Of a DNA stretch of 64,000 bases, positions 3,300-59,216 are shown in pieces. The DNA is from Microbulbifer harenosus (GTDB taxonomy: Bacteria > Pseudomonadota > Gammaproteobacteria > Pseudomonadales > Cellvibrionaceae): the NCBI RefSeq assembly GCF_005771435.1, contig NZ_VANI01000010.1, forward strand, positions 186,001 through 250,000, in the 5' to 3' direction. The translations under genes and the position numbers were made by a program. Every line of letters starts with the position of its first letter. The stretch's first letter is position 1. The notes under the pieces were generated by a model. That model saw only the letters and a program-made list of their open reading frames with translations, did not search any database and was not told where the DNA came from.

Positions 3300-4637
3300 T
3301 CAGCGAGGCATCATGGATTCAACTTCCTGCACGGTGCGCGCCAGCGCACCACTGTTCTGCCCTGCCACCGCGCGGCCGCGAGCACCGGCCTCTTCCCTCA
3401 GCGCGGCGTCCCGCAGCCACTGGGCCAGCTGCGCCGCGAGCTGCGAGGCATCGTTCACCACTGCCAGACCGCCGGCTTCCTGCATCAGGCTCGCAACGGT
3501 GCTGAAATTGTGCAGGTGCGGGCCGCACACTACCGGCACACCCCAGGCCGCCGGCTCAATCATATTGTGCCCCCCTACCGGCACCAGGCTACCCCCCACG
3601 AAGGCCACATCGCACGCACCGTAGAAGCGCAGCAGCTCCCCCATGGAATCTCCCAGTAACACCTGATCACCGGCCGCGGGCGGGCGCCCGTCACTGCGCC
3701 GCACTACGGAAAGCCCCCGCTCGCGGCACAGGCGCGCCACACTGTCGAAACGCACCGGATGGCGCGGCACCAGTACCAGCAGCAGGTCGGGAAACTCCCG
3801 CAACAGCTGTTGGTGAGCCTCCAGCACCGGCTCGTCCTCGCCGCCGTGGGTACTGGCGGCGAGCCACACAGGCCGTTTCGCAGCCCCGCGCCACTGATGC
3901 GACAATACCTGCGCCTCGCTCTCCAGTCCGGAGCCGATATGCAGGTCGAATTTGATATTGCCTACAGCCACCACCCTGTCTGACGGCATTCCCAGGGCGA
4001 CAAAGCGATCGGCATCCGCGGGATACTGGGCAACCACCTTCATGAGATTTTTCATCATGTCCCGGGCGAGCCCCGGGAAACGCCCATATCCCTTCGCAGA
4101 CTTGGCGCTGAGACGACCGTTCACAAGTACTGCAGGGATACCGCGCTTATCACAGATCGCCAACAGATTCGGCCACAGCTCCGTTTCCATGCTCACCAGA
4201 ATGTTCGGGCGCAGCGCATCCAGAAACGGGGTCAGGCATTCCGGCAGATCAAACGGCAGGTAATAGTGCAGCAGCCGCCCATTGAGGATGGGTTCAAGTG
4301 CATCGTGCACCCGCTGTGAACCGGTGGGGGTAGTGGTGGTTACCAACCACTGCCAGCGCGGATGGCGCGCGGCCAGTTCCTTGATCAGCGGGATGGCCGC
4401 AAGCGTTTCCCCCACCGATACCGAGTGAATCCAGATCAGCGGCGCGCGGCTCGCGCGGTCCGGCACCACCCCGAAACGCTCGCGCCAGCGGCGGCGGGCA
4501 CCCGGGCGCGACGGCACCAGCCCGAAGCGCTCGCTCCAGCGCTTGCGGTAAGCGGGGTCAGCGCGGCCGCGCCACCACAGATGCAGTAGCATCAGCGGGA
4601 GTGTGAGGCGGAAAAACCAAGTGTATAGATGACGCAT
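3300..4637 (-). CDS. waaA: Kdo transferase WaaA (lipid IVA 3-deoxy-D-manno-octulosonic acid transferase)
   Basis: WaaA transfers Kdo from CMP-Kdo to lipid IVA, the first step of LPS core assembly, while anchored to the inner membrane. The 445-residue product has an N-terminal hydrophobic anchor (about 6-21), the catalytic loop HSVSVGETLAAIPL with the conserved Glu at 77, then TTTTPTGS, METELWPNL, the GNIKFD and PRHPVRF motifs, and the C-terminal VGGSLVPVGGHN and EPAAWGVPV donor-binding region. The family is usually about 420-430 residues. The extra length is an in-frame duplication of 17 residues at 31-64 (RKRWSERFGLVPSRPGA, then RRRWRERFGVVPDRASR) just before the catalytic domain. Identification is firm; the duplication is reported separately. 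Confidence 0.97.
   Translation of the reverse strand: MRHLYTWFFRLTLPLMLLHLWWRGRADPAYRKRWSERFGLVPSRPGARRRWRERFGVVPDRASRAPLIWIHSVSVGETLAAIPLIKELAARHPRWQWLVTTTTPTGSQRVHDALEPILNGRLLHYYLPFDLPECLTPFLDALRPNILVSMETELWPNLLAICDKRGIPAVLVNGRLSAKSAKGYGRFPGLARDMMKNLMKVVAQYPADADRFVALGMPSDRVVAVGNIKFDLHIGSGLESEAQVLSHQWRGAAKRPVWLAASTHGGEDEPVLEAHQQLLREFPDLLLVLVPRHPVRFDSVARLCRERGLSVVRRSDGRPPAAGDQVLLGDSMGELLRFYGACDVAFVGGSLVPVGGHNMIEPAAWGVPVVCGPHLHNFSTVASLMQEAGGLAVVNDASQLAAQLAQWLRDAALREEAGARGRAVAGQNSGALARTVQEVESMMPR
4461..4562 (-). repeat. 51-bp imperfect tandem duplication inside waaA
   Basis: Two adjacent units of 51 bp (4461-4511 and 4512-4562) encode parallel peptides of the type R-W-x-E-R-F-G-x-V-P. The first 35 bp of each unit align with only a few differences; the rest has drifted further. 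The unit is a multiple of three, so the frame is kept. It lengthens the linker between the membrane anchor and the catalytic domain. Confidence 0.8.
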
Positions 4638-20140: not shown

Positions 20141-20685
20141 CCGGGCTTCTCCTGTGAACGGGCTCCAGCCCATCTTTACGGTAAGAGCCTGAGTATACAT
20201 TGGCCGTCACCGGAATCCTCGCCGCCCTGCGCCCGCGCTCTTGAACTTTCTTTAGAAGACCCTATCTAACCGACGATCCATTGCCACCAATCTTTCGTCA
20301 GAACCCTGTTTTTATTGCGGGCCACCCCGTTTTACGAGCATGACTATTTCGACTGATTACACACTTCACCTCAAGCACCCCCATAACTTCCGGGCCGCGG
20401 CAACCTGTCGCCGCGCCATGCGACGCGTACCCATCTACCTGCCCATCTCGCGTCCACCACCGTAATCACTTTCGAATTATTACCACTCAACTTCGCGCGA
20501 AGGCGTCACTGTCCGGTACAGCCTTGCGAGACCTTCTAAAACAGGGATGTTTTAGAAGAGCCCCCATGGATGGGTCTACGGCGTGTCTCGCAAGGCTGTA
20601 CCGGACAGTGGCGCCGCCACGGAGCTGATTAAACCCCCGAAGCATTACCACCACCCCCTGACAACCAAACCAAAAGGAGGACAAG
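20141..20685. other. Divergent intergenic region between glnE and the ABC operon
   Basis: 545 bp with no supported gene. It must hold the promoters of glnE (minus) and of the ABC transporter operon (plus). Its main content is the large structured element at 20502-20615. A strong ribosome binding site, AAGGAGG at 20674-20680, stands 5 bases before the GTG start of the ABC ATPase. Confidence 0.7.
20502..20615 (-). repeat. Structured intergenic element, copy A (nested inverted repeats)
   Basis: The outer arms 20507-20532 and 20585-20610 are perfect 26-bp complements, extended to 20502/20615 by four pairs and one G-T wobble. Inside, on the minus strand, come a conserved core ACCCATCCATGGGGGCT and then a perfect 10-bp hairpin (20533-20558) with loop ATCCCT, directly abutting the outer stem. 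The same plan, with a matching core and loop but different arm sequences, occurs at 31484-31613. No T-run follows, so it is not a simple terminator. It could be a structured RNA or a mobile palindromic repeat. Confidence 0.75.
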
Positions 20686-31483: not shown

Positions 31484-31613
31484 GGCGGTACCGCTACCGG
31501 GTGCGCTTTTGCGAGACACGAGCTAGGCGCTCCCCCTCAACCCATCCATGGGGGCTCTTCCGCGAGGTCCCTCTCGCGGAAGGTCTCGCAAAAGCGCACC
31601 CGGTATCGCCACC
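31484..31613 (+). repeat. Structured intergenic element, copy B (nested inverted repeats)
   Basis: The outer arms 31495-31517 and 31583-31605 are perfect 23-bp complements, with further imperfect pairing out to 31484 and 31613. Between them lie a spacer, the core ACCCATCCATGGGGGCT, and a perfect 10-bp hairpin (31557-31582) with loop GTCCCT that abuts the right arm. Compared with copy A at 20502-20615, the core, the loop, and the arm ends GCGAGAC/GTCTCGC and CTTC/GAAG are the same, while the rest of both stems differs yet pairs. The spacer before the core is 13 nt longer here. It sits between convergent genes. Confidence 0.75.
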
Positions 31614-31713
31614 TTCATATCGACCTTCATTAGACCAATTTGCTTCGAGCAACCATAAATCGATAACCACGGGAATCAATCAAGTATTAATGCCCTTTAC
31701 CGGTAATACCCAT

Positions 31714-57875: not shown

Positions 57876-59030
57876 ATGAACGCCCGCACGCTGCCCTCAT
57901 TGCAGCAACAGCTACAGCAACTGGTCGCCAGCCCCAGCGTCAGCGCCACCAACCCGAAACTCGACATGGGCAACCGCGGCGTCATCGACCTGCTGGCGGC
58001 GTGGCTGGAAACCCTGGGCTTCAATATTGAAATCATGCCCATCGAGGGCCAGCCCCACAAAGCCAACCTGATCGCCACCCTGGGAAAAGGCGACGGCGGA
58101 CTGGTGCTCGCCGGCCACACGGATACCGTGCCCTATGATGACAACCGCTGGCAGTCGGACCCGTTCAAACTGAGCGAGCGCGACAACCGTTTTTACGGTC
58201 TCGGCAGCACCGATATGAAAGGCTTTTTCCCCATCGCCATCGAGGCGGCAAAAAGCTTTGTCGACAAGCCGCTGCAACAGCCGCTGATTATTCTCGCCAC
58301 CGCCGACGAGGAGACCTCCATGTCCGGCGCCCGCGCGCTGGTAAAAGCGGGCAGGCCCAAGGCGCGCTACGCGATCATCGGCGAGCCCACCGGGCTGAAA
58401 CCCATCCGCATGCACAAGGGCATGATGATGCATGCACTGCGCATTACCGGACAGGCGGGCCACTCGTCCAATCCGGCCTATGGGGCCAGTGCATTGGAAG
58501 CCATGCACGGCGCCATGGGCGAGATTCTCAAGCTGCGCAGCGAGTGGCAGGAGCGCTACCGCAATCCCGGTTTTGCGGTGCAGGTGCCGACGCTGAATCT
58601 CGGCTGCATCCACGGCGGTGACAACCCCAACCGCATCTGCGGCCACACCGAGCTGCAGTTCGATTTGCGCCCGCTGCCAGGGATGCCGATGGAGGAACTG
58701 CGCGGGGAGTTGCACCAGCGACTGCAAAACTGCATTCACGGCGAGAGAATCTCGTTCGAGCTGGCGCCACTGATCGGCGATGTGGAAGCCTACGAGGAGC
58801 CCGCGCAATCGGAGCTGGTGAAGGTGGCAGAAAAGCTGACCGGCCACAGCGCGGAGAGCGTGGCGTTTGCCACCGAGGCGCCATTCCTGCAGAAGCTGGG
58901 GATGCAGACCATCGTGCTCGGCCCCGGGGATATCGACCAGGCGCACCAGCCGGATGAATATCTGGGTCTGGAGCGGATTGATCCGATGGTGGAGATTTTG
59001 CGGGGAGTGATCGGCAGGTTCTGCCTCTGA
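57876..59030 (+). CDS. argE: Acetylornithine deacetylase
   Basis: 384 residues of the M20 metallopeptidase family. ArgE removes acetate from N-acetylornithine to give ornithine in arginine synthesis. The metal sites are LAGHTDTVP (His and Asp), LGSTDMKGFF (bridging Asp), TADEETSMSGA (the catalytic Glu pair) and IGEPTGLKPI; the last ligand His is in DIDQAHQPDEY. I start at the ATG with AAGGA 9 bases upstream; a longer in-frame start at 57684 lies in the preceding gene. argA follows across a 186-bp gap that holds a perfect REP pair. Confidence 0.95.
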   Translation: MNARTLPSLQQQLQQLVASPSVSATNPKLDMGNRGVIDLLAAWLETLGFNIEIMPIEGQPHKANLIATLGKGDGGLVLAGHTDTVPYDDNRWQSDPFKLSERDNRFYGLGSTDMKGFFPIAIEAAKSFVDKPLQQPLIILATADEETSMSGARALVKAGRPKARYAIIGEPTGLKPIRMHKGMMMHALRITGQAGHSSNPAYGASALEAMHGAMGEILKLRSEWQERYRNPGFAVQVPTLNLGCIHGGDNPNRICGHTELQFDLRPLPGMPMEELRGELHQRLQNCIHGERISFELAPLIGDVEAYEEPAQSELVKVAEKLTGHSAESVAFATEAPFLQKLGMQTIVLGPGDIDQAHQPDEYLGLERIDPMVEILRGVIGRFCL

Positions 59031-59046
59031 AAGCCGGCGATGTGCC

Positions 59047-59118
59047 CTGTAGGAGCCTGCCTTGCAGGCGAACGGTCTGGAGCACTGAACCGTTCGCCTG
59101 CAAGGCAGGCTCCTACAG
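59047..59118. repeat. Perfect inverted pair of REP elements
   Basis: The arms 59047-59076 and 59089-59118 are perfect 30-bp complements around a 12-nt loop. Each arm is itself a REP unit: CTGTAGGAG, then a small GCCTGC-CTT-GCAGGC hairpin, then GAACGGT. It lies between argE and argA on the same strand and could stabilise or limit the shared transcript. The degenerate relative at 17111-17197 shows this is a repeated family. Confidence 0.9.
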
Positions 59119-59216
59119 CGAGAGTCCGCCGAAGATCTGTACAAGCCCCGAACAAATCTGCAGAAAATGCGGTATATTGCACCGCTAACGAATTTACCTG
59201 CTGAAGCGAAGAGACA

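Follow-up and report, generated by a model that had tools for sequence, protein, structure and literature searches.

The closest described relative of the element reported here is a Yersinia repeat known as RU-2 or YPAL, represented in Rfam as Ysr224, whose sequence is printed in Table 1b of PMC2759123. As far as the accessible text of PMC2229807 goes, YPAL has target duplications of 3-26 bp, is found at or near dyad symmetry, occurs with filled and empty sites, and is co-transcribed with upstream genes, possibly affecting their mRNA. The available portions of two further papers list YPAL among the Y. pestis families that fold strongly (PMC2267715) and place Ysr224 among the most widely annotated RNAs (PMC9029176). 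In the accessible parts of the literature that we searched, from which subscription papers were mostly excluded, the family is undescribed outside Yersinia and Erwinia.

Two copies of a YPAL-like element, A and B, lie in the window, the whole 64-kb stretch of Microbulbifer harenosus DNA (genome G000) that was analyzed, and their features are collected in Table 1. In what follows, the GGA strand is the one with A-N-GGA in its hairpin loops, which is + in copy A and - in copy B; the opposite strand is called the core strand. The pair check by coordinate found 26 bp without mismatch in copy A (20507-20532 with 20585-20610), which one wobble and four further pairs extend to 31 bp, ending at 20502/20615. 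The original prediction, made from the letters of the window, was correct to the base for both stem lengths, for the 10-bp hairpin and for its loop (AGGGAT on +, ATCCCT on -). The core pattern of copy A is on the minus strand at 20558-20575, and the element measures ~125 bp between the stem ends. Copy B was predicted to share the plan with different arms that pair perfectly; the common core, the one-base loop difference and the pairing of the altered arms hold, whereas the pairing is not perfect, with 23 consecutive pairs before the first mismatch in an outer stem somewhat less perfect than that of copy A. RNA folding gave z-scores of -10.96 (+) and -13.51 (-) for copy A and -10.42 (+) and -9.22 (-) for copy B, with 0 of 200 shuffles equal in each run, and the window contains the 18-base core two times, where 0.04 occurrences would be expected from 100 shuffles. 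As had been proposed, copy A lies upstream of both glnE and an ABC operon (GlnE and ABC_tran by Pfam), with a 41-codon ORF intervening on the glnE side; the sequence adjoining it lacks a T-run, in line with the earlier exclusion of a terminator; and the REP-like inverted pair near 59.0 kb is another kind of repeat, so that the distinction drawn from the REP family of the window also stands. The ORF between glnE and copy A (20340-20465, +) is conserved, ends in ...RRVPIYLPISRPPP and can be recognised, at a length of 37-42 codons, in each of the eight relatives compared (L230-L237); Pfam gave no match when it was read as 40 aa. Copy B is set between convergent genes, of the PhzC-PhzF family on + and DUF6314 on - (Pfam).

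Table 1. Features of copies A and B, in positions of the 64-kb window.
Feature	Positions	Strand	Basis
Copy A, outer stem, 5' arm on GGA strand	20502..20532	+	pair check by coordinate, fold
Copy A, outer stem, 3' arm	20585..20615	+	pair check by coordinate
Copy A, inner hairpin P3, 10-bp stem CTTCTAAAAC/GTTTTAGAAG, loop AGGGAT (20543-20548)	20533..20558	+	pair check
Copy A, hairpin P2, GCC-CCC-[ATGGAT]-GGG-TCTAC-GGC, near-invariant core	20560..20582	+	pair check, alignment
Copy A including conserved outer ends (core strand GTGGCGG...CCTTCGC), with conserved mismatches	20495..20620	+	
Copy B, outer arm (3' arm on GGA strand)	31484..31517	-	pair check
Copy B, P2 region, longer module GAGCTAGGCGCTCCCCCTCA; core on + at 31540-31557	31518..31556	-	
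Copy B, inner hairpin P3, 10-bp stem, loop GTCCCT on + (AGGGAC on -)	31557..31582	-	pair check
Copy B, other outer arm	31583..31616	-	pair check

Further copies, whose absence would have counted against the prediction, are many. At up to three mismatches the core was found at 90 places in the 4.67-Mb genome (32 exact), against none for the reversed core at the same threshold, and a covariance model, R1, found at least 145 full-length matches (weakest E 3.9e-5), a lower bound given that 150 candidates were scored. R1 was built from 30 A-like copies, 18 of the 48 aligned copies being left out for their different stem register. The family and its copy number are firm, and this copy number, together with the filled and empty sites described below, speaks for a dispersed mobile repeat and against a discrete RNA gene. 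Two subfamilies differ in the core, which reads ...GGGGGCTC in subfamily A and ...GGGCGCTG or GGGAGCTG in subfamily B; among the copies, P3 hairpins of a few kinds replace one another, and the P2 module is either short or long. In subfamily B of this genome, weak conservation continues past the right end up to GTACTTCGTA, which suggests that the unit may extend further than the stem. Stem counts in G000 used 86 of the 90 core places (stem score of at least 12), and among those dropped as decayed or false are L049 (3233) and the match on the minus strand of L071.

The conserved fold runs, on the GGA strand, from the outer 5' arm through P3, with its variable stem, and P2 to the outer 3' arm. 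P2 is nearly invariant (GCC-CCC-[ATGGAT or AGGGAT]-GGG-TTCAC-GGC). Across 30 copies from seven or more genera, picked for a common register, which favours structure, 96.5% of the cells are paired; there are 304 double-changed cells against 82.5 (sd 7.7) by shuffling, a number that 0 of 500 shuffles reached, and the covariation score, 0.705 against 0.184 shuffled, is destroyed by a slide of one to three columns. The claim that diverged stems keep pairing thus extends well beyond the two copies from which it was drawn, and with so many further copies and pairing kept through double changes, the element is neither confined to the window nor losing its stems as it diverges. The coupled arms also agree with the proposal that selection or copying acts on the structure, and the evidence suggests both. 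The P3 loop holds GGA in 232 of 238 copies from the genus and in 97 of 105 named-genome copies with a P3 hairpin, orthologs being counted separately, and the copies examined for this carry 143 different P3 hairpins. Larger multi-hairpin modules stand in place of P3 in six named-genome loci (L137, L139, L150, L190, L153 and L157); some, such as L150, have an added hairpin whose loop on the core strand is again ATCCAT.

The core of the element is, by its letters, homologous to YPAL/RU-2, and we regard this homology as firm. A profile of 48 copies, with no Yersinia copy in its listing, matched the published 168-nt RU-2 with 24.3 bits (E 1.5e-6), compared with 3.7 bits for the highest-scoring of 500 shuffles, and the match spans RU-2 positions 61-122 only. 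No Rfam family reached its gathering cut-off in the window. A permissive Rfam search of 12 loci found Ysr224 (RF02770) in five (44.7, 30.3, 29.1, 22.1 and 21 bits), the best being the Stenotrophomonas copy L112 (E 5.1e-7) and the second L073, a locus in the M. harenosus genome; copies A and B (L003 and L004) had no Ysr224 match at E ≤ 10. The proposed Rfam search therefore named a relative, but all scores are under the 70-bit gathering cut-off. Likewise, a structured family with many copies is real, but with its core homologous to YPAL/RU-2 it is not simply a new RNA family. Several microRNA models that matched in the permissive search were read as generic long hairpins, and our first candidate, the TwoAYGGAY motif of two hairpins with loops containing GGA, had no match at E ≤ 10 in the 12 sources. 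The Stenotrophomonas locus also holds a cobalamin riboswitch (L112:5438-5667, +, 88 bits).

The likeness to YPAL goes beyond the profile. Within an outer stem, on the GGA strand and in the same order, YPAL has a P3 with a GGA loop and then GCC-hairpin-[ATGGAT]-TTTAC-GGC; the three inner pairs of P2 are CCC/GGG in the copies here and TAC/GTA in the published RU-2, a paired difference. Both are intergenic and repeated. The copies here lie close behind stop codons, and a 2006 abstract reportedly places YPAL closely behind stop codons as well. Filled and empty sites, reported for YPAL in the accessible text of PMC2229807, are observed here too. On the other side, the outer arms and ends have no evident sequence in common, the published unit is 168 bp long against about 125 bp here (with the weak conservation beyond the ends in subfamily B), and the Rfam strand of Ysr224 is the core strand, opposite to the GGA strand.

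Other small repeats are less close. REP/BIME elements, whose presumed substrate for the Y1 transposase (RAYT) is a folded single strand, are likewise intergenic palindromes present in many copies per genome and often as inverted pairs, but the YPAL-like copies are three to four times longer and have a branched fold. They also differ in their relation to Y1: the Y1 transposase (PF01797) is present in 45 of 48 genus genomes with no visible relation to copy number (all 19 genomes with at least 30 core matches, one of them below the cut-off, and 26 of the 29 others), and none of 20 loci of 5-5.4 kb around Y1 genes holds a copy or a REP pattern. No link to Y1 as a mobiliser was found in copy number or at these loci, nor any to a resident reverse transcriptase (PF00078), which is absent from 15 of the 19 copy-rich genomes; it is present in 4 of 19 of these versus 17 of the 29 others. 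One query (L034) against plasmids and phages gave no match. ERIC and MITE-like elements are also small, non-coding, dispersed and palindromic and adjoin genes, but the copies here showed no terminal repeats assignable to a known insertion sequence, and their arms vary from copy to copy while pairing is kept.

The YPAL-like palindrome is spread over many Gammaproteobacteria and patchily amplified. The core pattern is present in 33 of 48 Microbulbifer genomes, with 0 to 114 matches per genome; at the family level, 14 of 32 genera and 70 of 144 genomes have it. Of 369 genomes sampled from the class, 10 match a stricter core pattern, M. harenosus included, and one genome of a distant family of the class (G392) has 103 matches to it. 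Among the matches listed for named genomes (80 of 119 stretches) are Microbulbifer, Halomonas and relatives, Stenotrophomonas, Xanthomonas, Shewanella and Rheinheimera, as well as Marinobacter, Alcanivorax, Saccharospirillum and one Desulfopila; those in Arthrobacter, Planctomycetaceae and Verrucomicrobiales, also among the matches listed, have no stem and look like chance.

The copies lie behind stop codons, seldom in divergent spacers and often as inverted pairs. With gene contexts taken from a simple codon-usage gene caller written for the analysis, the GGA strand is sense to both neighbours at 36 of the 90 core places and antisense to both at 33, while 18 are in convergent spacers, 2 in divergent ones and 1 has an uncalled neighbour; divergent spacers make up 24% of the intergenic bases of the window. 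One of the two divergent copies is copy A, where the small conserved ORF falls under the score of the caller. In 44 of the 52 copies with a gene ending towards the core-strand side, 70-126 nt separate the core centre from the stop codon. Thirty-two neighbouring pairs are spaced 156-238 bp apart, all inverted and 28 of them with the GGA strands pointing outwards, and no direct pair lies within 350 bp, where 1.6 neighbours of any kind would be expected. A motif that recurs in the flanks, CTTCGTAG, resembled a target sequence, but its frequency in the window does not exceed chance.

Many of the sites are old. Of 40 copies in genome G001, 29 are common to G002 and 25 to G000, and the copy A site is occupied in G016, G022, G032, G027, G024, G007 and G010 by orthologs with swapped P2/P3 modules and paired arm changes (e.g. 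C-G versus T-A); in G026 the copy is deleted between two CGAT repeats. At the copy B spacer the element points the opposite way in G016, G007 and G010 and the same way in G026, and G022 has a decayed copy. In G016 this spacer (L300, ~3330-3500) contains a copy without P2, the outer stem and P3 forming one uninterrupted hairpin. The 59-kb spacer has an element in five relatives and is empty in G016 and G022; G001 and G002 are empty at the L054 site and at that of the L075 minus-strand copy. In the window, ~59030-59150 is occupied by the REP-like inverted pair (GTAGGAGCCTGCC...GGCAGGCTCCTAC) where the five relatives carry the YPAL-like element. No target duplication is readable, since the bases adjoining the empty sites are too diverged.

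The arms change largely in pairs. Between nearest copies in G000 (51 comparisons) there are 84 paired Watson-Crick differences, 47 transitions and 37 transversions, along with 21 one-sided differences and 3 that are double but not Watson-Crick. At 18 orthologous sites of G001 and G002, 13 differences are paired, from one Watson-Crick pair to another, 16 are one-sided and one is double but unpaired, where 1.3 double changes would be expected if both sides changed independently. By the same expectation, G001 and G003 (19 sites) show 15 paired and 14 one-sided differences with 1.25 double changes expected, and G002 and G003 (11 sites) 4 and 12 with 0.45 expected, the counts among the three genomes being mutually non-independent. 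In G000, the same 19-nt arm recurs at another genomic place for 7 of the 86 copies and most nearest neighbours are one to three letters off, so copies elsewhere are not the main source of whole arms, and gene conversion between copies was rejected as the sole source of new ones. Copies do recombine: P2 and P3 modules are swapped at orthologous sites, and L311 is a mosaic. Wholly different arms are found at 6 of 24 shared sites of G001 and G002, 4 of 23 of G001 and G003 and 9 of 20 of G002 and G003; at six such aligned sites the adjoining spacer is often different too, and some may be replaced spacers or separate insertions. The copying of one arm from the other in a single step (template switching) would explain both the frequency of paired changes and the transversions, and strong selection with fast compensation is the alternative. 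The available part of PMC8794818 describes DNA template switching as a process that creates and keeps hairpins.

The mismatches that remain are unequal between the strands. At outer-stem positions 0-18 of 352 copies, 6298 of 6688 cells are Watson-Crick, and the others, read on the core strand, include 173 A.C against 45 G.T. The ratios of A.C to G.T, C.T to A.G and C.C to G.G are 20:5 (p 0.004), 14:1 and 5:0 in G000 alone and 68:28 (p 5e-5), 70:7 and 27:3 in the named-genome set, which includes Microbulbifer records (at least L113, L131, L142 and L149); with shuffled partners the ratios are near even. Read on the GGA strand, the favoured mismatches are G.U, G.A and G.G, which are those best tolerated by a folded strand. 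The A.C to G.T ratio is lopsided irrespective of the direction of neighbouring genes, at 31:3 where the GGA strand is sense to both neighbours, 45:9 where it is antisense and 17:2 in convergent spacers (orthologs of three genomes included, with contexts from the same gene caller). We therefore conclude that the GGA strand, in its folded form, is under constraint whatever the local transcription, and selection on the local mRNA was rejected as the source of the pairing. Against this, the ratio is only 8:5 in the most variable stem part (positions 3-14) of G000 alone and only 8:4 between orthologs of G002 and G003. Recent one-sided changes in place between G001 and G002 lean in the direction of the full set (AC 8, GT 2, CC 4, CT/TC 2). 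RNA and single-stranded DNA would yield the same mismatch bias, and the age of the sites together with the one-sided lean in place would suit a local function no less than a mobility signal.

We give about an even chance to the reading that copies A and B are a non-autonomous mobile palindrome of the YPAL type that is processed as a folded single strand and has come to rest at the 3' ends of genes. An unlikely alternative, though its Csr-like loops would make a striking lead, alternative or additional, is that the family is a dispersed regulatory RNA, the GGA strand being transcribed and its A-N-GGA loops binding CsrA/RsmA, the copies serving either as sponges for Csr or, locally, as 3' or 5' elements that respond to it. 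The loops are indeed strand-specific: of 352 copies, 320 have at least two A(N)GGA on the GGA strand and 10 have them on the opposite one, the counts for CAGGA(T/A/C)G are 110 and 1, and GGA persists in the P3 loop across the many different hairpins noted above. The accessible text of PMC7652899 gives the CsrA SELEX consensus as RUACARGGAUGU, mostly in a six-base hairpin loop, and the CsrB repeats as CAGGA(U/A/C)G; copy A carries ACAGGGATGT, and the B subfamily has CAGGAUG, so that the loops resemble those of CsrB/RsmZ-type RNAs. The strand asymmetry also fits an RNA of the GGA strand, and the recent changes in place agree. However, sense and antisense copies are nearly equal in number, the asymmetry is equally clear in the antisense copies, and two loops in a long stem at hundreds of loci without preferred orientation contrast with the many short hairpins of CsrB/RsmZ at one locus. 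The stems are also far more stable than those of usual CsrA sites, for which stable stems may be disadvantageous according to the same available text (PMC7652899).

Two further readings were weighed. Were the copies structured 3'-end elements kept for the mRNA, as bidirectional hairpins protecting or ending neighbouring transcripts, their placement behind stop codons and near absence from divergent spacers, their inverted pairs and the conservation of sites would follow, and YPAL is said in the accessible text of PMC2229807 to be co-transcribed with upstream genes; but such elements need neither a fixed core nor fixed loops, and wobbles would be expected on the transcribed strand, yet the bias stays on the GGA strand even where the core strand is the transcribed one, which leaves this reading improbable. 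We consider it about as improbable that the palindromes have no function and are kept perfect by template switching between arms alone (quasipalindrome correction), with their spread incidental. The excess of double changes at orthologous sites over independence (13 versus 1.3) and the transversions among paired changes between nearest copies (37 of 84) favour it, as does the description, in the part of PMC8794818 available, of template switching that makes and maintains hairpins, but it predicts neither the near-invariant P2 core, nor the conserved loops under many stems and conserved end mismatches, nor a strand asymmetry blind to gene direction. A broader version of the mobile reading, in which a Gammaproteobacterial class of elements is moved or maintained as a folded single strand with Csr-type loops and mutually copied arms, the host Csr system being its cofactor or titrated target, is in our view rather unlikely.

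Returning to the mobile palindrome, we infer transposition via a folded single strand, copying between arms and an effect on mRNA 3' ends, which could be connected as follows. The folded GGA strand, with its long outer stem, P2 and P3, would be what the mobilising machinery recognises, with the sequence fixed in the P2 core, in the loops and at the ends while the arms need only pair. When one arm changes, the result would either persist as a stable G.U, G.A or G.G mismatch or become a paired change, through arm-from-arm copying (DNA template switching) or through compensation at a later time. Fresh copies would land just behind stop codons, often as inverted pairs, and would there become the 3'-end hairpins of neighbouring transcripts.

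The movement of many small bacterial palindromic repeats is unexplained, and the YPAL-like family offers a direct test, with its copy-specific arms, its one constrained strand irrespective of gene direction and changes in progress between close species. It is also a clean natural case for separating paired stem changes that come from selection from those that come from copying, which bears on every inference of RNA structure from covariation. If the copies move as a folded strand, YPAL-type repeats would be tied to single-strand transposition; if RNA of the GGA strand binds CsrA, hundreds of intergenic repeats would join a global regulatory circuit. If the reading as a Gammaproteobacterial mobile element is true, each copy would carry its own perfectly paired 'bar code', and Csr would perhaps be titrated via more than 100 copies.
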